A DNA stretch of 64,000 bases from Brachyhypopomus gauderio (taxonomy: Eukaryota > Chordata > Actinopteri > Gymnotiformes > Hypopomidae), in the NCBI RefSeq assembly GCF_052324685.1, contig NW_027506974.1:124501-188500 (forward strand). The letters run 5' to 3'. How positions within the stretch are numbered: the stretch's first letter is position 1; each line of letters opens with the position of its first letter. The translations under genes were made by a program, and so were the position numbers. The notes below the pieces were generated by a model that saw nothing but the letters and a program-made list of their open reading frames with translations, had not been told where the DNA came from and searched no databases. Positions 520 through 44,512 of the stretch are shown piece after piece.

Positions 520-1695
520 CCTAGCCCCCAGTGAGCAAGCCAAGGGCGACAGTGGCAAGGAAAAACTCCCTAGTTTTTTGCATGAGGAAGAAACCTTGAG
601 AGGAACCAAGACTCGGGGGGGGGGACCCATCCTCCTCTGGCCGACACCGGTCACCATGACAACAACAACAATTTAGACAGAAAGAAATAAAGAAAAGGAA
701 AAGATGTAGTATTGTCCATCATGGTGTAGGCTTATCCGGTCAGACAGTAGGTGGCTGGCACTGGATAACTCGCTTGCCTCTCCTCATCTCATTTTTCCTC
801 GAGCAGGCGGGCAGCCATTTGGAGAAAATAAAACAGGGAAAATTAGCTCTGTATGAGGACATATACAGGACAGATGAAATTAAACACATTTCTGGAGTGT
901 GGCAGCAACTCCGGCATTAAGTTAAACTATTACAGCCTAGCTAAAAAGGCAGAACCAGAAGGTAACATAGGCTTGGGGGCATTCTGAGACAATGGCATCC
1001 ATCCACTGCACTGTCAACAAACTTGAGTGACCACGAGCAGTGACAGGACGACAGCACCAGCGCCCCAGTCTACCATAAAACCCTTCGTCTATGAACCCCT
1101 GGATCTGTACCTTTATCTAAGGGGGGATGTTAATTATCAAATGCTAAACCAAATAGGTGGGTTTTCAACCTAGACTTAAAGATTGTGACTGTGTCAGAGT
1201 CCCGTACGCATTTTGGGAGGTTGTTCCAAAGCTGGGGGACATTATAAGAAAAGGCTCTTCCCCCTGCTGTTACCTTATTAATTTGTGGAACTACTAAAAG
1301 ACCAGCACCCTGTGATCTTAGTTGACGTGGGGGTTCATAGTAGGAAATAAGTTCCTGGAGGTATTCAGGAGCAAGCCCGTGTAGTGCTTTATATGTTAAT
1401 AATAGAATTTTAAAATCAATACGAAATTTAACTGGGAGCCAATGCAGTGCTGATAGGACTGGTCTAATATGCTGAAATTTTCTAGTTCTGGTCAGAACTC
1501 TGGCTGCGGCATTTTGAACTATTTGAAGTTTATTTAGATTCCTATTTGAACATCCTGACAGTAGTGAATTGCAGTAGTCTAATCTAGAGCTAACAAAGGC
1601 ATGCACCAATTTTTCTGCATCATCCTGTGATAATGCATTTCTTAATTTGGCAATGTTGCGGAGATGTAGAAATGCTATCCTAGTAGTATTATCTA

Positions 1696-1986
1696 CAGGG
1701 TTGCCAACTTTTGACGTTCGCTTGGAGTGAGATTTTAACCTGGAGCCGGTGGCGAGTGTATTTTGTTGAGCGGGGGGGGGGACACAGATTCAGTGTTATA
1801 TCGCCGGTGGATGGCGCCAGAGCTAGCGAACTAGTAACGTAGGCTATTGAATCATATATGTGGATCTGAGGTAAATAAACTGGATATTTTTTTTCGGCGT
1901 GAGATATCGGAAGTGTGGCGTGAGAGCGTGTGAAAACGGTCAAATGCGTGTGTCTCACGCTCAGTGCGTGAGAGTTGGCAACCCTG
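1696..1986. mobile_element. Second MITE, interrupting the LINE coding region
   Basis: The ends are perfect 14-bp inverted repeats, CAGGGTTGCCAACT at 1696 and its complement ending at 1986. TATCTA flanks both sides (1690-1695 and 1987-1992). Removing the 291-bp element and one TATCTA restores the LINE reading frame across the junction (LSFDKYIDNTTRIAF), which proves insertion. The CAGGG terminus is hAT-like, but the visible duplication is 6 rather than 8 bp, so the superfamily is uncertain. The interior shares the TTGTTGAGCGGGGGGGG phrase with the MITE at 183-519. There is no transposase. Confidence 0.75.
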
Positions 1987-3705: not shown

Positions 3706-6700
3706 TCATGTGTCATATTAAAACAAAATTCAGAACTCAAGACATTTTGCTTCATCTCGAATTCAAAGATATAAATAAATATATTTTGCATACATCTTTC
3801 ACAAGCTTCTAAAGCTGTCATAAGAGTATATTGTGGCGATTGCCCTGGCTTGTCGTGTTATGTTATAGATGTGCCTGTAGACTTCAGATTTTCTACATGT
3901 ATTTTATGTCTTAGACGTGGTACTTGAGCATGATTGCAGTGATGCTGGTGGCTCGGACGTACTGTGATGTTTGGATGATCCAGAATGGCACTATGATTGA
4001 AAGGTGGGACACTGATGCTTAATGTCTCAAGTTCAGTGACATGCATGTGTCATTATTTTAAATTTTCAGACACAGAGTTTTAATAACTGAACAATATATT
4101 CTTTAATCTTTCACAGTGGTATCATTAGCAGAGATATCACTCTGTTCAAAAGGCACTTTTATTCCTACATTTCGGTCATACCTGGGGTAATGTCTCTATT
4201 TGCTGTGAATGATTTCGGACTAATAAGTGTGTGGACTTGTGTTATTGACAGTATAGCCCTACATATCTCATTCCTCTGACTAGATTAAGCCACGTAGCTC
4301 ACCATTACTTACTTACTTGAAACTGTAAAAACTAATATAGCTACTACTCAGCCATGTTGGCTCCAATACTAAAACACAGATCTCCTCTGATACAAATTCT
4401 GGCATTATTATCCCCTATAGACAGCAAGTGTAAGGGTTCACTATAGCAGTCCTTCATCTTTTTTCTTTAGTATTTCTAACTTTGCTTGCTCTTATTTTGT
4501 GCATGTTGTGGTTTACAGTGCTATTATTGGTCGCTCCCCAAAAGGTTTCAAGAAGTATTTGTTCAACTTTATGGGGGTCATGCCAGTTGTAAGTGACTTT
4601 TTAAAATACTTTTTAGACATGATGAAGCATTATTGATTGAACTGTGTTTTATTTGTAACTATAGTGTATGTTTTCAGTTTTAAAAAGATGTAGAAAGTCA
4701 GAGGAGGCCTGATGTAGCTATGTACTTACGTAATACCGTAACCTCTCTTTAACATACTACATTAATATTGCTATGGAGTAATCAGCTACCAACAGTCATT
4801 ATGTATGCATTTTGCACATCTTGTGTTTGTTTTCTTACTATGTACCAAGAGATTTTTTTTTCTTTAGATTTCATACCTTGTTTAAATTCGTAGTTCTGTA
4901 CCACTGTAGATTGCCCTGGTGAACAATCTTTTGAAACTTGGCCTGTACGAGCTCAAGCTCTGCTTCCGTGAGAGACTCACCAAACATCTCTACGATGAGT
5001 ACCTGAAGTAAGGGCACTTCTGAGCCTCGCCCCATGTGTCGTTTCTCAGCCAGACAAAGCATCCTGTATTTCTGCACTTCTGAATCTCCAGGGTGGGTTT
5101 TTTTTTTTTTTTGCTTTTACAATTTTTAGGGGCTACACCTACTACAAGATGGGCAATCTGGACAACCGAATTGCTAATGCTGATCAGCTCCTAACCCAGG
5201 ATGTGGAGAAGTTCTGCAACAGCGTGGTAGATCTCTACTCTAATCTCAGCAAGGTGCAGCATTTCTTTAATTCATTACAAAACAAAATTATAACAGTTCT
5301 GCTTTTAAACCTGTGATTTCCATTGCTACACTCAAACGCGGTCACGTTGTTTGACTTGTTGATTTGTTTGTCCCCCTCACAGCCTCTCCTTGACATTGGC
5401 CTCTACATCTTCAAGCTGACGACTGCAATTGGAGCCCAAGTAATACTCAGTCTGTTTTCTGAACGTTTCATGAGCGCCACATTTCTGAACACACACCTGG
5501 CAGTGAGCTGATGTGATGCGTGCTCTCAGGGTCCCGCCTCCATGATGGCGTACCTGCTCATCTCGGGACTCTTCTTGACGAGGATGAGGAGACCCATTGG
5601 AAAGATGACCGTGATTGAGCAAAAATACGAGGGGGAGTACAGATACGTCAACTCGCGCCTCATCACCAACAGGTGCATTTTTTTTTATCCTGTCAGTTAA
5701 AATTGTGCCTGCAGAAGAAGTGCTTGTTAACCTCGCACCCTCCTAACGCCTGCTGTCTTGTAGTGAGGAGATTGCCTTCTACAATGGGAATGTGAGGGAG
5801 AAACAGACCATCCACACCACCTTCAAGAAGCTGGTGAGAGCCGCCTCTGTACTTTTATGATGAATATTGAACTTGTTGAAAAGTTGGACTTGTGTACATT
5901 TGTCGTTACGAATGGCTGTTCGTTTGTATCTGTGCTTTGCCCTCAGGTTGACCACTTGCACAATTTCATCTTTTTCCGCTTCTCCATGGGCATGGTAGAC
6001 AGCATCATTGCTAAGTGTAAGTTACGCACAGGCTAAATGGATGTTAAACCCATCATAAGCATTGACATTTAAAATCATTTTCAGTGGCAATTCTTCTTTC
6101 TGTCACGTGCAGACTTGGCCACAGTAGTTGGTTATCTGGTCGTGAGCCGACCCTTTCTGAACATGACACACCCACGCCACCTCCACAGCACACACGCTGA
6201 ACTACTGGAGGTAAGAGACCTTAACTCCACCTAGTGTATCCTCCATATTCCCTCTCCCTGTAGGATTACTACCAGAGCAGTCTGATTTATCCCCCATATT
6301 CCCTCTCCCTGTAGGATTACTACCAGAACAGTCTGATTTATCCTCCATATTCCCTCTTCTGTAGGATTACCGCCAGAGCAGTCTGATTTATCCTCCATAT
6401 TCCCTCTCCCTGTAGGATTACTACCAGAGCAGTCTGATTAATCCCCCATATTCCCTCTCCGTGTAGGATTACTACCAGAGCAGTCTGATTTATCCCCCAT
6501 ATTCCCTCTCCCTGTAGGATTACTACCAGAGCAGTCTGATTAATCCCCCATATTCCCTCTCCGTGTAGGATTACTACCAGAGCAGTCTGATTTATCCCCC
6601 ATATTCCCTCTCCCTGTAGGATTACTACCAGAGCAGTCTGATTTATCCCCCGTATTCCCTCTCCCTGTAGGATTACTACCAGAGCAGTCTGATTTATCCC

Positions 6701-9700
6701 CCATATTCCCTCTCCCTGTAGGATTACTACCAGAGCAGTCTGATTTATCCCCCATATTCCCTCTCCCTGTAGGATTACTACCAGAGCAGTCTGATTTATC
6801 CCCCATATTCCCTCTCCCTGTAGGATTACTACCAGAGCAGTCTGATTTATCCCCCATATTCCCTCTCCCTGTAGGATTTCTACCAGAGCAGTCTGATATA
6901 TGCCCCATATTCCCTCTCCCTGTAGGATTACTACCAGAGCAGTCTGATTAATCCTCCATATTCCCTCTCCGTGTAGGATTACTACCAGAGCAGTCTGATT
7001 TATCCCCCATATTCCCTCTCCCTGTAGGATTACTACCAGAGCAGTCTGATTTATCCCCCATATTCCCTCTCCCTGTAGGATTACTACCAGAGCAGTCTGA
7101 TTTATCCCCCATATTCCCTCTCCCTGTAGGATTACTACCAGAGCAGTCTGATTTATCCCCCATATTCCCTCTCCCTGTAGGATTACTACCAGAGCAGTCT
7201 GATTTATCCCCCATATTCCCTCTCCCTGTAGGATTACTACCAGAGCAGTCTGATTTATCCCCCATATTCCCTCTCCCTGTAGGATTTCTACCAGAGCAGT
7301 CTGATATATGCCCCATATTCCCTCTCCCTGTAGGATTACTACCAGAGCAGTCTGATTAATCCTCCATATTCCCTCTCCCTGTAGGATTACTACCAGGGCA
7401 GTCTGATTTATCCCCCATATTCCCTCTCCCTGTAGGATTACTACCAGAACAGTCTGATTTATCCCCCATATTCCCTCTCCCTGTAGGATTACTACCAGAA
7501 CAGTCTGATTTATCCCCCATATTCCCTCTCCCTGTAGGATTACTACCAGAGCAGTCTGATATATGCCCCATATTCCCTCTCCCTGTAGGATTTCTACCAG
7601 AGCAGTCTGATTTATCCCCCATATTCCCTCTCCCTGTAGGATTACTACCAGAGCAGTCTGATTTATCCCCCATATTCCCTCTCCCTGTAGGATTACTACC
7701 AGAGCAGTCTGATTTATCCCCCATATTCCCTCTCCCTGTAGGATTACTACCAGAGCAGTCTGATTTATCCCCCATATTCCCTCTCCCTGTAGGATTACTA
7801 CCAGAGCAGTCTGATTTATCCCCCATATTCCCTCTCCCTGTAGGATTACTACCAGAGCAGTCTGATTTATCCCCCATATTCCCTCTCCCTGTAGGATTAC
7901 TACCAGAGCAGTCTGATTTATCCCCCATATTCCCTCTCCCTGTAGGATTACTACCAGAGCAGTCTGATTTATCCCCCATATTCCCTCTCCCTGTAGGATT
8001 ACTACCAGAGCAGTCTGATTTATCCCCCATATTCCCTCTCCCTGTAGGATTACTACCAGAGCAGTCTGATTTATCCCCCATATTCCCTCTCCCTGTAGGA
8101 TTACTACCAGAGCAGTCTGATTTATCCCCCATATTCCCTCTCCCTGTAGGATTACTACCAGAGCAGTCTGATTTATCCCCCATATTCCCTCTCCCTGTAG
8201 GATTACTACCAGAGCAGTCTGATTTATCCCCCATATTCCCTCTTCTGTAGGATTACTACCAGAGTGGGCGTATGCTGCTACGTATGTCTCAGGCCCTTGG
8301 TAGGATTGTTCTCGCCGGCCGAGAAATGACGAGGCTCTCAGGGTAAACGACATTGCATTGATCATGATTGTAGACGAAGCACACGTCTCCATTCTGACCT
8401 GTTGGTGACCGTCTGCTCTGCTGAGATCTCCAATCTGGTTTTTAGTTAACAACTTTAGTTAACAACAAGTTTAATTTCAACTAAAGAAATTGTGGCCTTC
8501 AAATTCAAAAGCAAGGCAATGCGTAACACAAAAGGATTTTTGGGGTACTTCGTGTCTCTCAGTTGAGAGATGGGTGAGACAGAATAGACGTTTGAATAGA
8601 TACAGATTGAATAGGCAGTATACATCAGTGCATTGATGTGAGTCTATATATTTTCTATATGTATTGTATCTATATCTAAATCTATGTAATGCGTGATTAG
8701 ATTTACATGAAGGATTTATTTTAGTTACTTAAATGCTAATTTATTAATTGTCCTTTATTCATAGGTTTACCACCCGGATCACTGAACTTATGAAGGTCTT
8801 AAAAGAGCTGAATTCTGGGAAATATGAACGCACCATGGTCTCTCAGTCAGAGAAAGGTGAGCTCAGATCTGTTGAAGAGGAAAACTGTGGGTAGCCACAA
8901 GGCCTTGTTACTCATCATTGATTTAATCTTTGCAGAAACAGATGCCTTAGAAAAACTAACCTTGCAGCCCGGAAGTGGACGGATCAACCACATGGACAAC
9001 ATCATCAAGTGTGTATACAGACTTCTGTGTCTCATCTTCAGACAATGTCAGATTTCCAACAAATATGTTAATACGTCACATTATCCTGGATTAACTTGGT
9101 ATTTTATCAGCTTTATTTTGCATTCTCTAGGTTTGAACACACACCCTTGGTAACACCCAATGGAGATGTTCTGATTAAAGACCTTAATTTTGAGGTAAAG
9201 TTATATTTAAGGTGTACCATTTTACTCGGTATATCACATTTGTTTTCTTTTTGCAAACCATTCTTAGCATTGCAAAGTTTCAAATGCTAGCACATTGCTC
9301 ATTTCTAGGGCACCTTTGACCTCTCCATTGTAAAATGGCCTTGTAGAAAGACTTGCTTTTATTGTATATCTCTTTGGTTTATACCAGTTGTGAATAAACA
9401 TATTTAACAGATGTCTCAAATATTCAAATTAGTTAGGCCATGATATAGTTGTGGACTCGGGTAAGGATCACAGAGACCCGTGTTAATGTTGCGTATGTAT
9501 GTGTCTCCAAAGGTGAAATCGGGCACCAATGTTTTGGTGTGTGGGCCCAATGGCTGTGGAAAGAGCTCACTTTTTAGAGTTCTTGGAGAGGTAAGCACGT
9601 AGATTTAAAGCCAACTCCTGAAGACAAGCAAACTTTGCAAAGCAGTGTCTTGTGAGCATTTATTTACATACATGTCTAAAGTGTGGTTCGTTTTCTTTAG

Positions 9701-10766
9701 CTGTGGCCCCTGTTTGGAGGGAATTTGACCAAACCAGAGAGAGGGAAGCTCTTCTATGTCCCTCAGGCAAGATCCCTGAAAAGCCAACAGCAGCACCAGT
9801 TCTTTCTAGATATGCCTCAATAGATAGATTTCTATGGCTTTATAATATTGTGTGCTCAATTCCAGAGACCATATATGACGCTTGGCACACTGAGGGATCA
9901 GGTTATCTACCCCGACACCCATGATGACCAGAAGAAGAAAGGCATTTCAGATCACGTACTGGACAATATTACGCCAGCTCAGACAAATGACGTTCTCATT
10001 TTTTGGGCTCTTTCCCTCCACTGTGTCTCCCTAACGTTGTGTCTGTGTTTGAGACAGGTGCTGAAGGAATACCTGGACAATGTGCAGTTGGGGCACATCC
10101 TGAACAGAGAGGGCTCCTGGAACACCGTTCAGGACTGGATGGATGTTCTCAGCGGTGGAGAGAAGCAGAGGATGGCTGTAAGGAAGCTTGACTTTTCTCT
10201 TCAAACATAAGCAGTATGGCTGTCAGAAAATATCCTTAAAGGATCTACGGTCAAACTGAGCACATTGTTTCTTGGCTGCTGTTTTAATTGCTGCAGATGG
10301 CTCGGTTGTTCTACCACAAGCCTCAGTTTGCCATCCTGGATGAGTGCACCAGTGCTGTGAGTGTGGACGTGGAGGACTATATATACAGTCACTGCAGAAA
10401 GGTAAGGGAGACTTCTTGTCCTTGTATTGATGTTCTCAGCACTCTTCTGTAGTGGTGTGAAGCTTCTCCTTTGAGTTGACTCGTCCTTTCTGTTCGTTGC
10501 AGGTGGGCATTACTCTGTTCACAGTCTCCCACAGAAAGTCCCTCTGGAAGCATCATGAGGTGAGACTAACGGGAGGGGGAGGGGGAGGGGGTCGTCCTCT
10601 TTTATTCTGGGAAGATGTTATCTGTGCTGGACACTTCTCATTTGTGCGTGAACATGGCTAGCCTGCTTTTTGTTTGTGTTGCCTACAGTTCTACCTACAC
10701 ATGGATGGAAGAGGGAATTACGACTTCAAGCCCATCACTGATGAAACGGTGGAGTTTGGCTCATAG
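2436..10766 (+). CDS. abcd3: ATP-binding cassette sub-family D member 3 (PMP70), 23-exon gene
   Basis: Half-transporter of the peroxisomal membrane that dimerises and imports branched-chain and dicarboxylic acyl-CoAs and bile-acid precursors for beta-oxidation. Exons: 2436-2545, 2990-3026, 3304-3402, 3915-4003, 4117-4186 or 4519-4588, 4910-5007, 5130-5253, 5383-5439, 5530-5672, 5764-5833, 5947-6016, 6113-6210, 8251-8342, 8765-8856, 8936-9008, 9131-9194, 9513-9590, 9701-9766, 9866-9955, 10058-10177, 10297-10401, 10503-10559, 10689-10766. All phases agree and give 659 residues, the length of human ABCD3. Landmarks: N-terminus [22 protein letters not shown] (277-284) in the EAA-like loop; Walker A GPNGCGKS (473-480); signature LSGGE (571-575); Walker B ILDE (593-596); H-loop His625; C-terminus VEFGS. 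Oddities are the doubled exon 5, a GC-AG intron after exon 18, and an intron 12 made almost wholly of exon-13 acceptor copies. Whether it is the a or b teleost paralogue cannot be told here. Confidence 0.97.
3657..3702. repeat. (AT)n microsatellite
   Basis: About 23 AT dinucleotides in abcd3 intron 3. No other function is visible. Confidence 0.95.
4117..4186 (+). CDS. abcd3: abcd3 alternative exon 5a
   Basis: Seventy bases bounded by TTTCACAG and GTAATG. It completes the serine codon split at the end of exon 4 and ends in phase 0. It encodes [23 protein letters not shown], which aligns without gaps to exon 5b (identical at I, I, R, F, K, V, P). It lies in the loop after transmembrane helix 1 and the start of helix 2 (residues 112-135). 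Using 5a and 5b together would shift the frame, so the two are expected to be mutually exclusive. 5a is further than 5b from the mammalian exon. Confidence 0.8.
4519..4588 (+). CDS. abcd3: abcd3 alternative exon 5b (canonical-like)
   Basis: Seventy bases between GTTTACAG and GTAAGT, with the same phases as exon 5a 332 bases upstream. It encodes [23 protein letters not shown], which closely resembles the human segment (IIGRS..FK.YL.NF...MP). This is the version to use for a reference protein. The donor GTAAGT is stronger than that of 5a. Confidence 0.9.
6235..8264 (+). repeat. 51-bp minisatellite in abcd3 intron 12 made of exon-13 acceptor modules
   Basis: The array runs from 24 bases after the exon 12 donor region into the first 14 bases of exon 13. 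Each 51-bp unit reads GATTACTACCAGAG (the start of exon 13), a branch-point-like TCTGATTTAT, CCCCCATATT, a pyrimidine tract CCCTCTCCCTG, and TAG. The distance from the first decoy GATTAC (6264) to true exon 13 (8251) is 1987 bases, that is 39 units less two single-base deletions. The third acceptor (6363 region) and the true one share the shorter TCTTCTGTAG variant. Most other variation is single substitutions (TTTAT/TAAT, GATTTC, ATATATGCCCC). Confidence 0.95.
9767..9865 (+). other. abcd3: Non-canonical GC-AG intron of abcd3
   Basis: Exon 18 ends ...TATGTCCCTCAG and is followed by GCAAGA, with no GT that keeps the frame. The acceptor TTCCAG at 9865 precedes AGACCATATATGACG. The join gives [16 protein letters not shown], the conserved Q-loop region, so the GC donor is required. 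CAG|GCAAG is a good match for functional GC donors, which are a small minority of vertebrate introns. Confidence 0.9.
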
Positions 10767-12499: not shown

Positions 12500-14737
12500 A
12501 TGACCAGGGTATCTCCTCTACTCCTCGTCCTCTTACAGATATTCTGCACATGCCATGCTCAGGAACGCAGTAAGTCCATGGTTAGACACTAACAGAGTAA
12601 TGTCTGGTAAATTGCAGTGTCTACATGTGGCAAATATTCTTTCTATCTTGTATCTTTGTGTCTTTGACTGCTATGTCTCCCAAGGCTCTCTGCGCTTTGT
12701 TGCCATTGGAGACTGGGGTGGTCTTCCATTTGCCCCCTATTACACCACCCAAGAACAGGACATCGCTACCGAGCTGGGGCAGGTTGCAGAGAGGTGGGGG
12801 GTGGACTTTGTCCTGAGCCTGGGAGATAACTTCTACTACAGTGGAGTCAAGGACGTTAATGACTTTCGCTTTAAGGTGTGCACTGTTCATTTATGAGTGT
12901 AAATATAGTATAATTCATGAAAATATTGAAAATGTGGCTTGTGTTATGTTGTGGTATGTTATGTGAATTATCATAAATCTCTGTAAGTTACAGCTTTTTA
13001 CTTTAGCAATTGCCTTAAATATGAGACACACAGCCATTAAAAATGGTAACAGATCTACAAATATTTTCTGACAAACTTATTAGCTTGAGAGTTTTCAAAT
13101 CGTCACTGCTGGCCCTCACACTCAGTAAACGTAGACGTCAAACTTTGCCACATGTGTAATAAGCATGCCCTCTAGTGGACATGGTGTTGCATGTCTCCAT
13201 AATCATTCAACTATACTAGATGAACCCATGTTTCTACAAACTGATTCAGCACCCGGGACAATATAAGTACTTGAGTTTTAGTCAGTTCCACCATCTCCTC
13301 TGGTTTCAGGCAACATATGAGCAGGTCTTCTCCTATCCAGCACTGACTGCTGTTCCGTGGTATTTGGTGGCGGGAAATCACGATCATCTGGGAAATGTTT
13401 CTGCTCAGCTTGCCTATTCGGACATATCAGAGAGGTGGTGAGTTTGTGCCACAGTTGAAGGTGAACGCTACATGCTAATTCAGTGGATGGTACTGTGCAC
13501 CAGCACTGCACTGGTGTTACACTGCCTGCTCTGTGACACTGTCTTCTGTTGATGTCTCTCTAATCCAAAGGCATTTTCCTGAGCTCTACTATCAGTTGCA
13601 GTTTAAAGTTCCCCACACCAATGTCTCCATGACTGTCCTAATGATAGACACAGTGGTTCTGTGTGGGAACACTTATGATGGATTCTACCCACGAGGCCCA
13701 GAAGACCCTGGCGCTACCGACCGCCAGTTCGAGTGGATCAGGACAACACTAGAGAACACAAAGTAGGATTTGTCAGTTTAGGATCAAACCAGAGGTCCGA
13801 ACTTAACTTCAAACGTAACAAGGATGGGTTTTTAACTCAAATATAAGGGAGTAGACATCAAGGTAGCACTGGATGTGATGATTTGACCAAATTATTGTTT
13901 TTTTTTTCCCCTTACTTTTTGCTGAAGAAGGATAAATCCTTAAACAAGAACGTATAAATTTGGGAACTTGTTTTTAGAAGTCCTGACCTGCCACACTCCT
14001 CCTCATAATAAGTTCCACCCATGCATTCCTACAAGTCAGTGTGACCACAAAAACACACCCCATGTCTATGAAAACACAATAGTCCTCCCTTACCCTACAC
14101 ACATCCTAACACCCCTCAACATTCCTAACACTGAGGTATTCCTGCCACAGCACCGCTGCTTCCCTGATAAAAGGTTATGTTGTCTTAATGTCTACACTAA
14201 ACAGACTCGTGACAAATCTGTGATTCCTCCTCAGGTCTGAATTTGTGGTGGTGGCTGGCCACTACCCTGTTTGGTCCATCGGTCACCATGGACCTACACA
14301 ATGTTTGGTGGAGAGGTTGAGACCATTACTGAAGAAGTACAATGTCACTGTATACCTGAGTGGCCACGACCACAGCTTACAGGTGAGAAGCTGATCATCA
14401 AAACCTTCACATACATTTACTCAGTTCTCCCCAAATCATCTGTTGATGGAAACTGCATTCAATTTCTTCCCAGTTTATCAGGGAAGAGGACGGAAGTGCA
14501 TTTGTGGTCAGTGGAAGCGGGAATTTCCTGGACACCTCCGTTAACCACAGGAAAGGTTTCCCATTGTCTTGGCAACTGTTTTCGAGTGCTGTGAATGAAA
14601 CCTTAGGAGGTTTTGTATACTTTGAGGTCACAGATAGCCAAATGTATGTTAGTTATATTCAGTGGGACGGGAAGTGTGTGTTTCAGACGGCTCTGCCTAA
14701 ACGCAGCACCTACCGGACTGAAGGAGACGGACAATAA
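12500..14737 (+). CDS. acp5: Tartrate-resistant acid phosphatase type 5 (purple acid phosphatase)
   Basis: Secreted or lysosomal di-iron phosphatase, in vertebrates a marker of osteoclasts and some macrophages. Exons 12500-12569, 12685-12875, 13310-13437, 13571-13762, 14235-14382 and 14474-14737 join in phase to 330 residues (human about 325). The first 20 residues are a signal peptide (hydrophobic [10 protein letters not shown]). All metal ligands are present: Asp33 (GDWGG), Asp71 and Tyr74 (GDNFYY), Asn110 (GNHDH), His203 (GHYP), His238 and His240 (GHDH). Against mature mammalian numbering these have a constant offset of 19, then 17 after a 2-residue deletion. NVS glycosylation sequons are conserved. 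An out-of-frame ATG lies 7 bases upstream (12493), but only the ATG at 12500 gives the signal peptide. No clear AATAAA follows; ATTAAA at 15086 is the best candidate. The gene lies 1.7 kb after abcd3 and faces f3 tail to tail. Confidence 0.95.
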
Positions 14738-15892: not shown

Positions 15893-17190
15893 GCTAAAGA
15901 GCACACTCTCCTCATACACCCCTCTAAGAGCACACTCTCCTCATACACCCCTCTAAGAGCACACTCTCCTCATACACCCCTCTGAGAGCACACTCTCCTG
16001 ATACACCCCTCTAAGAGCACACTCTCCTCATACACCCTTCTAAGAGCACACTCTCCTCATACACCCCTCTAAGAGCACACACTCCTCATACACCCCTGTA
16101 AGAGCACACTCTCCTCATACACCCCTCTAAGAGCACACTCTCCTCATACACCCCTCTAAGAGCACACACTCCTCATACACCCCTGTAAGAGCACACTCTC
16201 CTCATACACCCCTCTAAGAGCACACTCTCCTCATACACCCCTGTAAGAGCACACTCTCCTCATACACCCCTCTAAGAGCACACTCTCCTCATACACCCCT
16301 CCAAGAGCACACTCTCCTCATACACCCCTCTAAAAGCACACTCTCCTCATACACTCCTCTAAGAGCACGCTCTCCTCATACACTCCTCCAAGAGCACACT
16401 CCTCATACACCCCTCCAAGAGCACACACTCCTCATACACCCCTGTAAGAGCACACTCTCCTCATACACCCCTCTAAGAGCACACTCTCCTCATACACCCC
16501 TCTAAGAGCACACTCTCCTCATACACTCCTCTAAGAGCACACTCTCCTTATACACTCCTCCAAGAGCACACTCCTCATACACCCCTCCAAGAGCACACAC
16601 TCCTCATACACCCCTGTAAGAGCACACTCTCCTCATACACCCCTCTAAGAGCACACATTCCTCATACACTCCTCCAAGAGCACACACTCCTCATACACCC
16701 CTCCGAGAGCACACACTCCTCATACACTCCTCTGAGAGCACACACTCCTCATACACCCCTCTGAGAGCACACTCTCCTCCTACACCCCTCTAAGAGCACA
16801 CTCTCCTCCTACACCCCTCTAAGAGCACACATTCCTCATACACTCCTCCAAGAGCACACACTCCTCATACACCCCTCTAAGATCACACTCTCCTCATACA
16901 CCCCTCTAAGAGCACACACTCCTCATACACTCCTCCGAGAGCACACACTCCTCATACACCCCTCTAAGAGCACACACTCCTCATACACTTCTCCAAAAGC
17001 ACACACTCCTCATACACCCCTCTAAGAGCACACACTCCTCATACACCCCTGTAAGAGCACACACTCCTCATACACCCCTGTAAGAGCACACTCTCCTCAT
17101 ACACCCCTCTGAGAGCATACACGCCTCATACACCCCTGTAAGAGCACACACTCCTCATACACCCCTCTGAGAGCATACACTCCTCATACA
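15893..17190. repeat. 29-bp minisatellite at the 3' end of f3
   Basis: About 44 copies of a 29-bp unit (plus strand TAAGAGCACACTCTCC then TCATACACCCCTC), with 27-bp variants and many point changes. The array reaches into the last codons of f3: on the minus strand each unit carries GGGTGTATGAGGAG, which at 17195-17180 is the end of the coding sequence (Gly-Val-stop). The repeat therefore appears to have expanded from the stop-codon region into the 3' UTR. Confidence 0.95.
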
Positions 17191-18533
17191 CCCTTCAAAG
17201 GTACTCCCTCCATTCCTCTCTTCTTGGTCTTCTGTCGACGTTTGCAGCACATGACTATGACAGCAATCACCACTGACACTATCACAGCGATGACCAGGAT
17301 GGCAGACGCTATTACCGGTAAGCTGTAGTCTACAATGCAAGAAGATGAAGACCATGATTAGTAAGCTGTCCCCCTTTACTGAGCACTGTACTGTACAGAG
17401 ACAGGACCAGTTTTGCAATGCTGCAGTTGTCTGTGGTCTTACCCACTGCCATGACTTCTCTCAATGTCTACATCTCATCAACCATGAGCCCACAATAGTG
17501 TTGAACCCTACACACATAACTGTGACACCATCTTCCTGAACGATTGACCACTACTCAGTATGCTACAGTATCATTACACACCAGCATCGCGGTCACACCA
17601 GCTACCACTTGTCCTTTAAAGTCATGTGTTAAACGCTAAGGCTGAAAGAATATGAACTACAGCTTTCTGTAGAAAGAAAACTTTTACATAATGTTATTAA
17701 TTTATCATTACTTTCCTTATTACAAAATAAGCCAATCTGCTGTGCTTTATAAAGGTGCTAATGCATGTTTTAACAGAGCAGCCACCTGTATTATAGGTGG
17801 GCATCACCTCTTTTTTAGAGCTTACCATCAAAGAAAGACTTGTGCTCCTCCGGAGAACACTGGACATGACTGATCTCGCCGTGCTGTTTGTCCGGGCTGC
17901 GGGAGCGAATGAGGGCTTGTACAGTGAAGCAGTAACTCACGCCCTGGTCCAGATTAGTCACCTCTATTGTGCTGCTGGTGCTGATCTTCTCTTTCTTAGG
18001 AGGAGAACATACATGGCGCAATCACTTATCCATTCACTTATTCATTCAGTAATTCATTCATTTATTCATTCACTTATTAATTCACTTATTCATTCACTAA
18101 TTCATTCACTAATTCATACACTTATCCATTCATTTATTAATTCAATTATTCACTCAGTAATTCATTCACCAATTTGTTTATTTTTCCAGCTAACCCAGCG
18201 GATGAAGCTCTTTGAACCCTTTTAAATGCATGTCCGGATTCCATTACTCTATTTTGGCAGGAAGAGGTCATAAACAGGTCCTGAGAAGACCTGCAAGCCT
18301 GGTCCTAATTGTGTATACCCATAAAACTAACCAAGAGGCTCCGGGCCAACGGAGGTAGTTGTTGGTTTTGTAAAGAACCATACAAATCTTTAATAATTTC
18401 TCTTTAATTATTGTTCCTTAAGATTTAATCCAAGAGATTGTGTACGACTTATAAATCTGTGATGTGAACTAATAACTCATACATAAACATTCAATTATAT
18501 ATATATATATATATATATATATGGTGTGTAATG

Positions 18534-34113: not shown

Positions 34114-35680
34114 CCATTTTATTTGTATTTCGCCATACTCAGTGCTCCTTTCCACAGAGTAAACAAAAAACAAAACTCAGATGACATCAAGACATAAGAC
34201 AAAAAAAACAGACAAAAGCTGTCAAATCAAAAACACAAAGGCAAATCAAAAACACAGCAAGTTATCAGAGAGTGGAAATGTTGGAAAAGATGCATTTGAA
34301 GTTCAGATTTAAAGGTGGAGGGAGAAGGACAGAGACGAAGAGATTGCAGTAAAGTGTTCCACAATTTTGCATAATTTGCATAGTTTTGCATAATGTTTGT
34401 GTTCTGGTTGCAAACAACTGGTGAGGTGATGAAACAGACACACCATCAAAACTGAATGTAAAACCAGTTAGTTTTGAAATTATGTGTTTAACAGAGTTTA
34501 GTTTTTAAGTAAGACAGAGTTTAGTTTTTTAAAAGTTTGCCCTCAACCATTGTTTGAGTTCATGTATACAGAACAAAACAGCAGGGAATGGAAGAATACA
34601 GAAAGATTGTTTAGCATACAAATTGCACAAGCTTAAACATACAAATGACATTTAAGTTTATGACAGACAAAATGGATTTGACTAGGACTAGGACTGTCAA
34701 TTTCAGAAAAATGCTCTGAAATATCCAGGCATTATTTTAGGGGCAGCCCCAGATATTTGAACCAGGGTTGGACATGATGTCATCCCGTTTATGTGATATT
34801 GCTTAACTCATCAGAAGAGCACAACAGATAAACAACAGATCTAACAGACGCCGGTTAAAAACAAAACAGGATGTCTGGTTCAAACAAACAAATTTCCACA
34901 GTGTATTACCACATAAACTAGAATATACTAAAATACAACAAATCCTTAATGTTTGTCATTTGTTATTTACATAGGAAATTCCACATGTCCTACTAACTGA
35001 CCAATATCAAATTATTTCTCTTGCTCCTGAATTTCCTGAATCCAGAGAGTTTAAAAACAAGAAACATTCACAATAAAAGTAAATATATAGAATTATAGAC
35101 AAAGGCACTGATCAAATAAAATATTTTAATTTAATCAATATTTTAATACATATTTAAAATTACATCTTAATGAAAAATAAATACATTGCATTCACTCAGA
35201 TATTCAGTGTAGCTGCTGGAGGAGATGCCTGAACAAAAAGAAAAAATGGCTCATGCACCCTGCAAAAAAAAACCAAAAAAAAAAACAAACAAAAACAAAA
35301 CATACACAAAGTGTTATTTCAGTGTCAGTATAATTTCAGTGTCAGTATATTTTAAAGTGTCAGTAGTCTCTAAATGTCAGTATTATTTCTTACCTGTAGC
35401 ATCCAATTCCTTGTATGTGTGAAAGAGATTCTACCTGCTAGCTCTCTCTTCCCCCATGCACAATGCTACATGCACATCTCAACTGTTTATTCCTTCTCCA
35501 AGTTCCACCCAGTTCTGAAATACACACTGACAGCACATCTGTGCATGAACGTAACCTTTCAGTTAAGTCAGAAAATGACCTACTGTATTATAAACATACA
35601 GATTTATACTTGCATACATTCTTATGTGTAATATAAATCTCCACATTCCAAGATCTATAAGAACTTGATCCCTCACTCAC
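32181..35680. other. Intergenic, only simple repeats
   Basis: AT-rich DNA containing an (AAT)n tract (34067-34113). There is no supportable gene. Confidence 0.4.
34067..34113. repeat. (AAT)n microsatellite
   Basis: About 15 perfect trinucleotide repeats. Confidence 0.95.
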
Positions 35681-35770
35681 ATAATCTACTGACAACATCC
35701 ATAATCTACTGACAACATCCATAATCTACTGACAACATCCATAATCTACTGACAACATCCATAATCTACT
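35681..35770. repeat. 20-bp tandem repeat
   Basis: Four exact copies of ATAATCTACTGACAACATCC and a fifth half copy. The perfect identity suggests recent expansion. Confidence 0.95.
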
Positions 35771-36859
35771 GTTAAGATAACATCCATTTAGTGCTCACTT
35801 ACTGTCCTGAAAATAAAACTGGCTGGCATTACACATAAACACTTCTGAATCTTAAAGGATGGTGCAGAATGTCAGAGTCGGTGACAGAGTCAGACTCACT
35901 TGCAGACAGAATTCAGGGATTACAGTGGTAGAAGACCCCATGTTTGGAATCAAAACAGAAGAAACACCAGGCAGACAAACCTCAAACAGAGCAGGCAGAG
36001 AGGTGAAGACCGGGAAAACAGGCCTAACTCACAACGTGAATGCAAAAAGTTAAACAAACATTCAGGAATGGCTCAGAAACTAGGCAAGCATACAAGACTT
36101 CATAACAAGGACAGAGGTGAGGGTTGACAACAAGACAGGTTCAACTAAATCAGAGGATAAGGAATGAACAGGAGGGTTATGGGGATTGCAGGCTGCCTCC
36201 ATTATTAAGGTTACTCAACTAATCTCCTACAGAAGACACAAAAACAATGACCATTCATGTAGTTACCATATTACTGTAGCCTGCAACTGATCTAGAACTA
36301 GCAACTGTGCTACATGTACATTTATTAACACAGCCACTAAATCACCAATCGCCATCACTCTGATCATTTGGTTGAACACCTTTGTACCATCAGGATTAAG
36401 AATTTGTTGTTTACTGTGCAATGCATTTTAATACTAATGTACCTTGTACATAAGGTCTATTTAATGCTAACAAACCTTCTCTGCTTGCATTGCTAGTTGT
36501 TGCTATGGCAGCAATGAAATGAGGAAACTCAAAGAAAAAGACACAATCTACACTCTTAGAACTTAAGACCTCCATGGTATGAATGTGATGATTAAAACAT
36601 CTGCCTTTTTATATACATACTGATTCCTCCTCCTGTTCATTCAGAAGCACTTTGCTTGTACACCTGGTGAAGGACCTCTGTCCAATGGCACATGAGATTA
36701 AAAAAGTTTAAAATAACAATTTAATTTCTTTCAGTTTCTTTACAACCAAATGCCAAATTCAAATCTGAATCTAATACGAAGCAGACTGGTTGGAAATAAC
36801 AACAGAAAGAACAACAACGACAACAATAATAAAAACAAGGGCACTTGTATTTGGGTTTT

Positions 36860-40700: not shown

Positions 40701-43700
40701 GGAGGGGGGGGGGTTCAAACATTGGTTTGCCATAAAAGGGCGTGAATCACAGGCACCCGTCAGCACTGCGCTCCACCTCCAGATGTGTCAGCACAATCCA
40801 AGGGGCTGACGGTGTCTCATCAGACGCTGCCTAATGCCATACAGTCTGTCTGAAGCCAGTGGGCTTCGGCTCAAGCCAAGTACTACTGTTGCTTTAGAGC
40901 CATTGAGAAGGTGGGTTACATAAGCACCGTAGTGAAAGGCCACTTTGTGCTATAACTATGATGTGCCATATGAATTTGTGCTTTAATGTATTCAGCGGGT
41001 ATCAATTGATGATTGTGTTTTATTTCCATGGGCTACATCTTTAGATTAGTTAATTCAGCATGACCATAGTGAAAATGAGGAAAACTTGAGCTTGTTAGTA
41101 ACTTAATTTACCAACTAAGTTTGCCTTACTCATTAAAGCATTTTATAAGTGCGCTTATATTAGTACATTTTAATTATATTAAAAGTGAGTGGGGGAACAA
41201 GGAAAAATGCACAGTTTCCCAAGTTCACAGTGTCTGTTTGACTAAGTTGGAGCCTTCAATAAATTCCAGTGCTAGACAGAGAGAAGAATTAACATCCACG
41301 CATACAAAAAGTTTGGGGGGAGAAAAAAAAAGAAGAGACATTTAACTTCCATTGGCTGGCGTGCCGGAGGGGCCCCGCTTTTCCTCGTGTGGAAAAACAA
41401 GGAGCACGGAGAGGAGGGGGTCACGCAGGTCGTACTGTTTCCAAAACCAAGTGGCGGTGGTCGGGGAGCAGCACGGTGAGCGGCCCCGTCCCGGTGGGGT
41501 TCCAGCCCGGCTCCTGGCCCAGCGGCCCCACGCGGCCCCATGCGGCTACGCTCCTCAGGGTTCCGCCTCCTGCTTTTTCCACCCTTTCTTTTTTTTCTTT
41601 CTTTCTTTGAACGTTCGGGCCAGTGTCTGAGCCCCATATGTTTCATCTTAACCTTATAAGGAAATTGTTAGGGGATGGAATGGAGCGGCCTGTTGATTGT
41701 TTTAAGGCAGATTCCAATATGGATTTTCTTTTTGTTTCCTGCCTCATGATGCTTGGAGTGGCGGAAGGATCCATCAGGCAGCGTTGGGAGACGTAGAACT
41801 TGGATCTACAGTTAAACACGCACCAGCGCTGCAAAACGAGACGTGTATGTGCAGGACTGTCGCTCGGATCTGATTTCATTAATGTCTTTTTAGAAATGTG
41901 AGACCAGCGGTATCCTGGTCATCAAAGTGCATGGCCAAAATGTCTTAAATCAACCGCTTATTTATTTATATATTTATTGTAACAATCAATATTGGCCAAC
42001 GTGTGTGTAGTTTTGTTCCATCTGCGCTTGATTTTATGCAGGCTGTCAGACATAACAATAACAGAAACGCGGGCTATATGAACCGGCTGTCCAAACGTGC
42101 TCGCAGTCGGTGAGAGGAAGACTTCCACACGGAGCGTCTGGCCCTCAACCAGGACAGCAGGCATGGCCGTCCACTTTGAGCTCGTCTGTGTCTGAATGAA
42201 TTTCAGGACCTTGTCCCGCCTACACTCTTGATCACCCTTGCGGTTAAAAACAGCCCATGGGGATGAATGTGTATGTGTGTTTGCCAGCTGCATGTCTAGT
42301 TAATCTCTGTCTCTGAGTGTGGGGAAGATTGATAAGTGATTTATAGGTATCTGTCTGATAGCCTTCTGGATCCTCCCAAGTCTTTTATCTTGTAACTACA
42401 GCTTGGATAGAAGGGTCTTGGCATTTATGGGCCTCCACACCTGTTTTAGTCAGGTCAGAGTTTACTCACCCTGTCTGAGAGGAAATGACACAGGTTGACA
42501 CGCTCCCTCACCTGCTCCCACACGCTGTGATGCAGTGTGTTCAGTGTGCCGTAGGACAAGACGTCATCGGCCTGCCGTCAGATGCCTCCTTTACAGCTGT
42601 TTAACCTGCTGGGAATCAGGAAACCGTGTGTAAGGAATGTTTGTGGAGGAGTGAATGGAGACAGTACAGACATACGCACTGTAGCACACGGGGATAGAAC
42701 ACGCAGCCACTTTTAAAGGTGTTAATCGAAGAGGTTCAACCCGTGTCCCTGAGCTCACAGACCTGGCAAATGAAGTGGTTATTGTATGTCTGTGAGATGA
42801 CCTGAGAGAAATTACCTCACTGATGGGGAGTGTATGAATCAGAGCCAAGTACTGTGAGAGAGCAGGCCTACTTTTGGTGAGTGAGTGTTTTGGTATCTGT
42901 ACAAAGAATCCTCGTATGTGTGTGTGGTGAGTCACTAAGGTGTGGAATCAGGGCTCAGCCCTGGAGAGGCAGGTATATGGAGACACGTCAGGAATTTTGG
43001 GGTGTTTTTTTTATTGCAGTTATTGGGCTCTTTTCCCTCAGGAACTGGGAGATACCCCAGTGCCGTAGACCGCAGATATTGTAGGGCATTGTGTCTCGTC
43101 ATGACTGACTGCAAAGGCTCCTTTCACTGCGTACAAGAGTTTTTGATAGTGTTACAAACTGCTTTTCCTTCCTGTGGACATGCTGCTATGCAGTGCTTTG
43201 ACTAGCTTCTGAATGATTATAGGGCAAGAATGTTTAAAAGCTTATGATTTATTTTGTGCTGAAAATAAACATTATGTCCTTTCAGATTTACGCCTTCCTG
43301 GCAGAGGTTCCAAATGGCCTTTTCACAACTTGGCAGACACCCATACCAAATGCTCAAATACACGAGTGCAGTCATCCATAGAGCTGGGTTCAGTTTTGTC
43401 ACTGTTGGGTGACAATGACTTCATCCCCAAATGGACCTGCAGCAACACGTGAAGTGCAAATACGTCTGAGGCAGAGCAGACACGAGGCCCCGCCCTCTCC
43501 AGTCACTCAGCTTCTCCACGAGGCCCCGCCCTCTCCAGTCACTCAGCTTCTCCACGAGGCCCCGCCCTCTCCAGTCACTCAGCTTCCACACGAGGCCCCG
43601 CCCTCTCCAGTCACTCAGCTTCTCCACGAGGCCCCGCCCTCTCCAGTCACTCAGCTTCTCCACGAGGCCCCGCCCTCTCCAGTCACTCAACTTCTCCACG

Positions 43701-44512
43701 AGGCCCCGCCCTCTCCAGTCACTCAGCTTCTGCATGTGTGTGGCTGGGATGTGACCACTCCCCTGCCTCTACGTTTGTGATGTAGAATTCAGGTCTACGC
43801 TTTCCAGAGCCAGAAATCTGAGTGCATTCATGTCTATATGTGAAACTCGGAGCTTCTCGATCTTCTCACTGTCACTGGTCACGTTTAGTTTTCTCTTTGG
43901 TTTCTGTCCAATGCGTTGGTCTCATCTCGGTCTCGTCTCGTCATGGTCTCGTCTCGGCGGCCCGCCGAAGGAAGCCTAGGTTTTTCCAGCGTCTCTGCAC
44001 CCCCTGCTCAGGGTTCAGCCCTCAGAGCGGTGATGGATTCTCCAGACTCCATGGCCTCTTTCCACAGCAGTCTGACTGCCTTCCTGTGCAGCTCCTTCTC
44101 TGCAGTCCACAGTCTCTCGTATTTCTCTCTGAGGAGAGCTGTCACACGCAGCCTTTCACCCTCACTTTACAGATGCACGGCGTTACCCTTTTAATTCTGT
44201 TTAGTAGGAATGACCTAAATATGTGTAATTGCAATCCTATGTGTGTAATTGCAATCCTGTGTGTGTGTGTGTGTGCTGCAGGTGCTGTGTAACGGGCCAG
44301 GGACGTGCGTGCCTCTGTGTGCTGCTGGACTGCTCTTGGGGATCCTGGGCCTGAAGAGAGTGCTGCTGGTGTATGTGGAGAGTATCTGTCGTGTGGAGAG
44401 CCTTTCTCTGTCTGGTCAGATCCTCTACCACCTCGCCGACTACTTCTTTGTGCAGTGGCAGCCGCTACAGGCCAAATACCCCAAGTCCATCTACATTGGA
44501 AGACTAGTATGA
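37744..44512 (+). CDS. alg14: ALG14, membrane subunit of UDP-N-acetylglucosaminyltransferase
   Basis: ALG14 anchors the catalytic subunit ALG13 to the cytosolic face of the ER and helps bind dolichyl substrate; together they add the second GlcNAc of the N-glycan precursor. Exons 37744-37888, 38005-38156, 38414-38536 and 44282-44512 join in phase to 216 residues, the same length as human ALG14. Seen in the protein: an N-terminal membrane helix (about 4-27), the glycine-rich loop GSGGHTSEI (about 47-55), SPRHYVIADSDGMS, IHRIPRSREV, VLCNGPGTCVP and VYVESICRVE, and a C-terminus IYIGRLV. The exon 2 donor GAG|GTCATT is weak, but the protein join (RE-FTIHR) is correct. The last intron is 5.7 kb and contains a SINE and a GC-box minisatellite. 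A poly(A) signal is at 44705-44710. Confidence 0.95.
38604..38873 (+). mobile_element. tRNA-derived SINE, copy B, in alg14 intron 3
   Basis: It has the same blocks in the same order as the copy at 21417-21708. A 2-base loss disturbs the B box (GTGTTCGATTCC) and a 9-base loss follows the ACCCCAACTG block. A (GT)n run replaces AGTGTGTGTG. It starts 67 bases after the exon 3 donor, in sense orientation. Confidence 0.85.
39783..39835. repeat. (CCCCTG/CCCCTC)n repeat
   Basis: Twelve-base units of CCCCTGCCCCTC type, pyrimidine-rich, in alg14 intron 3. Confidence 0.85.
40600..43480. other. alg14 intron 3, no further gene
   Basis: Several G-rich runs (40660-40715) and a GC-rich patch at 41360-41640 with overlapping frames on both strands are present. 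No frame resembles a known protein and none has splice or start context, so nothing coding is called here. Confidence 0.4.
43481..43732. repeat. Seven-copy 36-bp minisatellite with GC boxes
   Basis: Seven near-identical 36-bp units, starting at 43481, 43517, 43553, 43589, 43625, 43661 and 43697. Each contains CACGAGGCCCCGCCC, so there are seven evenly spaced GGCCCCGCCC (Sp1/KLF-type) boxes. As 36 is a multiple of three, frames on both strands stay open (HEAPPSPVTQLL repeats), but there is no evidence of translation. Confidence 0.95.

Follow-up and report, generated by a model that had tools for sequence, protein, structure and literature searches.

Thirty-nine acceptor-like repeat units precede exon 13 of abcd3 in the fish Brachyhypopomus gauderio

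Tandem arrays built from exon-intron boundaries are known from amphioxus and from human genes. In amphioxus, the mirage minisatellites of the globin genes BflGb6 and BflGb9 are tandem duplications of intron-exon boundaries which reportedly leave regular splicing undisturbed, the BflGb6 unit running from the 3' end of one intron into the exon that follows, with a length of 150-160 bp and with 6 and 3 copies in two haplotypes (PMC3087553). Units of 10-72 bp are described for Adh3 (PMC3087553, PMC3902484), and an array in PGBD5 was found similar to other amphioxus arrays in a paper that also cites Adh and TnC (PMC3902484). In humans, a link has been drawn between tandem repeats located at exon-intron boundaries and new introns (PMC2812944). 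The variable number tandem repeat (VNTR) in intron 18 of human ABCA7 consists of 25-bp units, each starting with the exon 18 donor, and the copy at its edge is the canonical donor; its alleles range from approximately 12 to 427 units and are disease-associated (PMC5954066). Transcripts that retain one ABCA7 unit form a minor product (2 +/- 1%, provided that the percentages are given in the listed order of events); this retention shifts the frame and is independent of VNTR size, while skipping of exon 19 increases with VNTR size and expression falls (PMC5954066). The locus analysed here is intron 12 of abcd3, the gene for PMP70, within a 64,000-nucleotide stretch of Brachyhypopomus gauderio DNA (contig NW_027506974.1, positions 124,501 to 188,500, forward strand; hereafter the window, whose own numbering is used throughout), where the authentic acceptor of exon 13 at 8251 is the last of 40 nearly identical copies. 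The array is probably a single-locus mirage minisatellite, spliced mainly at 8251 and near neutral, with no evolved regulatory role.

Forty TAG/GATT junctions were located between 6264 and 8251, comprising 39 decoys and, as the fortieth, the true start of exon 13, which bears out the original observation of 39 tandem decoy acceptor modules; a forty-first TAGGAT at 8304 is unrelated sequence within exon 13. Tandem Repeats Finder (TRF) described the array as a 51-bp unit in 39.8 copies with 97% matches at 6237-8264, a tandem, minisatellite-like repeat as expected of a mirage minisatellite, and as in that class the unit spans the boundary together with its splice signal, with bases derived from exon 13 after the terminal TAG in 39 of 39 units. 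Each unit is ordered as CTGAT, a pyrimidine tract, TAG and 14 bases derived from exon 13, giving 37 nt of intron-like and 14 nt of exonic sequence. CTGAT and the terminal TAG are present in all 39 units, with no AG between them in any, and the branch-point-like A lies 29 nt from the final acceptor G in 37 units and 28 nt in two, confirming the spacing of about 29 bases noted originally. The register of the units likewise agrees with the proposal that the repeat was made by duplicating the intron 12/exon 13 junction itself. The array is slightly less regular than had been claimed: the 51-bp spacing holds for 37 of the 39 units and is 50 bp in the other two (6315-6364 and 8201-8250), and the first 14 bases of exon 13 are copied exactly in 31 of 39 units and inexactly in the rest. 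The 50-bp length belongs to units 2 and 39, close to the array edges, while unit 1 and units 28-38 are of the consensus type; 24 of the 39 units are identical. The features concerned are as follows.

6113..6210, + strand: abcd3 exon 12, ending CTGGAG at the donor GAG/GTAAGA; the translation matches human ABCD3
6211..8250, + strand: abcd3 intron 12, 2040 bp, nearly all array
6237..8264, + strand: minisatellite with a 51-bp unit (two units of 50 bp), 39.8 copies (TRF)
6264..8250, + strand: 39 units, each from a decoy junction to TAG; decoy exon starts at 6264, 6315, 6365 ... 8201
6315..6364, + strand: 50-bp unit ending TCTTCTGTAG, giving decoy 3 (6365) an acceptor identical to that of the real site; decoy 2 is frame-shifted
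8201..8250, + strand: last unit, 50 bp, supplying the authentic acceptor TCTTCTGTAG; decoy 39 is frame-shifted
8251..8342, + strand: abcd3 exon 13, 92 bp, donor CAGG/GTAAAC; the repeat takes its exonic part from the first 14 bases
8765..8856, + strand: abcd3 exon 14

Most of the array is also crossed by an antisense reading frame of 706 residues (6338-8458, - strand), which is open because 51 is a multiple of three and the frame contains no stop, and which is probably biologically meaningless.

The host gene served to establish the authentic acceptor. Exons 3 to 23, 21 in all, were located from their AG/GT borders; exon 1 was also placed, and a small exon 2, on which the numbers 12 and 13 depend, was deduced from the reading phase and not located. 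Joining exons 3-23 through 8251 yields 610 residues that align end to end and gap-free with human ABCD3 (PDB 8z9x; 1190 bits). As LLE directly precedes DYYQS in human ABCD3, 8251 is the authentic acceptor, and among the 40 acceptors it is the only one that gives an open frame through exon 13. Ten exons (14-23) follow exon 13, and the other introns between exons 3 and 23 measure 79-515 bp, compared with 2040 bp for intron 12. Intron 18 (after exon 18) apparently uses a GC donor, at 9767.

Translation of the predicted products showed that a stop is reached from 39 of 39 decoys, in each case upstream of later exon junctions, as in a poison isoform. The expectation that any decoy would add a 16-residue peptide and then a stop was therefore correct for the stop and too general for the peptide: 25 decoys give the same 16 residues, 12 give a variant of the peptide ending at the same stop and two shift the frame. 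The frameshifts, from decoy 2 (6315; 23 aa) and decoy 39 (8201; 42 aa), occur because the units concerned are 50 bp long. Decoy 39, the decoy nearest the real site, would add 50 nt and reach a stop codon at 8327-8329, within exon 13; a Pfam search assigned no family to its 42-residue product. Predicted retention of intron 12 ends in a stop after VRDLNST, and predicted skipping of exon 13 gives VYHPDH and then a stop, out of frame. The in-register stop is automatic, because the TAG acceptor is in phase 0 and the repeat length is divisible by three; the decoy stops are no evidence of design and needed no selection. Of the differences among the distinct 51-bp units, 6 affect the 14 exon-derived bases and 13 the remaining 37, roughly according to the shares of the two parts; they do not avoid the exon-derived bases, on which no constraint is therefore seen.

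The array probably originated by tandem duplication, at one gene copy, of a piece of approximately 51 bp that ran from the end of intron 12 through the first 14 bases of exon 13; unequal exchange or slippage would then have expanded and homogenised it to 39 copies. Adjacent identical units form 19 pairs, compared with a mean of 14.3 in 10,000 shuffles (p 0.0064). Among the variant units, one recurring pair each is seen at lags of 1, 2 and 8. Such a pattern of neighbours is what unequal exchange would give. The first copy begins at TATCC; in later copies, TATCC or a variant of it comes after ten further bases, CAGTCTGATT, which are missing in front of the first. The intron was therefore probably longer ancestrally than the 53 nt that now lead up to the first acceptor.

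A whole-genome DNA search, which scores the best candidates only and skips very common words, and a pattern search allowing at most 2 mismatches and no gaps both detected the array only on C130. A second abcd3-like gene is present on C19, and the three exons matched between the two copies are 64-68% identical. This paralogue has an intron at the same position (1565 bp, computed by hand), in which no tandem array was found, TRF on a 4-kb stretch giving nothing above 2.4 copies. Minisatellites are common in this genome: with a period of at least 15, at least 5 copies and overlapping rows merged, 18 arrays were counted in 146,283 non-N bases, in 7 of the 16 stretches fetched. Fifteen of these stretches came from different contigs, at the same position in each, and the sixteenth from next to the window; the window itself and the exon-centred loci L025-L030 do not enter the count. 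With arrays so common, some are to be expected at exon borders by chance, unless purged. Two of the stretches (L009 and L016) each hold five minisatellite arrays within 10 kb.

Normal splicing probably tolerates the array, with the spliceosome mostly using 8251 by exon definition, since no copy but the last is joined to the complete exon 13, at a distance of 92 nt from that exon's donor. Exons starting at decoys 39 to 36 would measure 142, 193, 244 and 295 nt, and those from the remaining decoys would be longer. Low leakage to the nearest decoys (8201, 8150, 8099 and 8048) would be expected, yielding premature-stop transcripts that are likely decay targets. Local acceptor strength was scored with a matrix built from the 20 other acceptors of the same gene, which is small and was scored on its own training set: 34 of the 40 acceptors score 6.01, 8251 and decoy 3 (6365) score 5.91, three score 4.76 and one scores 6.76. 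Acceptor strength as the discriminator between real site and decoys is thus unsupported by this matrix. RNA structure hiding the decoys was likewise rejected as a candidate, folding being not clearly better than that of shuffled sequences (z 1.09 for six consecutive units; z -0.96 for the last units together with exon 13).

Several observations weigh against predominant use of 8251. Its local score is not above that of the decoys and lies under those of 18 of the 20 other acceptors of the gene, on which the matrix was trained, and the exon 13 donor, GTAAAC, does not have the usual G at position 5 and thus gives no help to exon definition. In early experiments with duplicated acceptors, the acceptor nearest the donor was reportedly the one chosen. 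An intron ending at decoy 1 would have 53 nt, which is probably too short to splice, and one ending at decoy 2 (6315) would have 104 nt, which is not; a strict nearest-to-donor rule would therefore predict use of 6315, abolishing the normal product. The locus is in this respect a natural experiment with about 40 acceptors of near-equal local strength in series, and poses the question of what determines acceptor use: proximity to the donor, proximity to the complete exon, or chance.

Other explanations of the array were also weighed. Decoy capture close to the donor would suit a damaged gene copy, in which splicing is diverted, the copy is silent and the C19 paralogue covers its function; the 104-nt intron offered by decoy 2 and the existence of a second abcd3-like gene are in line with this. 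However, the coding sequence is intact over 610 aa and close to human ABCD3 (a recent array would leave little time for decay), and a paralogue with 64-68% identity in three matched exons may not be redundant, making such damage very unlikely. An artefact of assembly is less likely still, indeed barely credible: the window lies within a contig of 408,735 bp, much smaller than the large contigs that were sampled, and copy number in such arrays is often wrong, but the array contains distinct unit variants whose order is structured, and the gene around it is intact. Somewhat better placed, and still unlikely, is an effect of the array as a whole, which lengthens intron 12, multiplies pyrimidine-rich tracts and could, with growing length, promote skipping of exon 13 or lower output. 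Intron 12 far exceeds the other placed introns (2040 bp against 79-515 bp), the predicted skipping product is out of frame and, in ABCA7, exon 19 skipping rises and expression falls with repeat length (PMC5954066); that repeat, however, is on the donor side and has a different sequence.

Regulation through the decoys themselves had been proposed originally, with allele length tuning productive splicing through nonsense-mediated decay (NMD). In its general form, in which decoys compete by copy number, NMD removes the products and array length sets PMP70 output, this explanation is distinctly improbable. It is consistent with the stop reached from every decoy, with the branch-like site and AG kept in each unit and with the scores of most decoys, which are as high as that of 8251. 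On the other hand, the TAG stop arises incidentally from the acceptor sequence and the 51-bp length. One-unit retention in human ABCA7 is constant over repeat length, with no effect of length seen on NMD (PMC5954066), and the amphioxus examples are reported to splice regularly (PMC3087553, PMC3902484). The stronger version, in which the 39 decoys form a genetic rheostat, array length setting the share of 8251 and hence the dose of PMP70 among individuals, and in which the array is kept or exploited for this, merits very little credence. The tuning of splicing by allele length is thus conceivable and unsupported, no sign of selection having been seen and the ABCA7 and amphioxus precedents being contrary. 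The array is a real and striking structure, and its regulatory interpretation a hypothesis.

Other features of the window were recorded in the course of the analysis. An acp5-like acid phosphatase gene (12504-14737), the later part of which was seen only in the list of reading frames, lies downstream of abcd3, and 104 residues joined by eye from 12504-12896 and 13220-13441 match tartrate-resistant/purple acid phosphatase (best E 8.8e-42). Downstream of the acp5-like exons is a second large minisatellite (15897-17200) with a 29-bp unit in 45.1 copies (TRF). A 36-bp repeat at 43481-43731 (7.0 copies) is open on the + strand in three frames and on the - strand in one; no exon was recognised, judging by eye only, either there or at a 20-bp array at 35680-35771. 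An open frame of 219 residues at 1130-1789 (- strand), to which Pfam assigned no family, seems to resemble the end of a LINE reverse transcriptase.

By its anatomy, the abcd3 array would join the known kind of boundary arrays, with a copy number exceeding that of the acceptor-side BflGb6 array (3 and 6). Like the amphioxus mirages (BflGb6, BflGb9, Adh3, TnC and PGBD5), it is a boundary array with many units carrying splice signals; unlike BflGb6, with its units of 150-160 bp, it is built of 39 copies of 50-51 bp and lies in a vertebrate-like gene. A minisatellite with multiple splice donor sites is reported from human IFI6 (6-16) (Turri et al. 1995); it too supplies repeated splice sites, which are donors there and acceptors in abcd3. 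As in the ABCA7 VNTR, the authentic splice site lies inside the repeat and the real site is the edge copy. The ABCA7 repeat differs in its 25-bp unit and its position on the donor side, whereas in abcd3, known here from one assembly, the acceptor is repeated and the donor after 6210 lies outside the array. As the closest tested relative, ABCA7 would by analogy argue against length-dependent use of the decoys and for checking exon 13 skipping. Neither an abcd3 array in a fish nor an acceptor-side array in a vertebrate was met among the open-access papers covered by the literature searches, no search naming abcd3 having been made. Such arrays may be under-reported in minisatellite-rich genomes. 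With the present one, boundary arrays as known from amphioxus, and from human ABCA7 for a donor, would be recorded at an acceptor in a fish as well.

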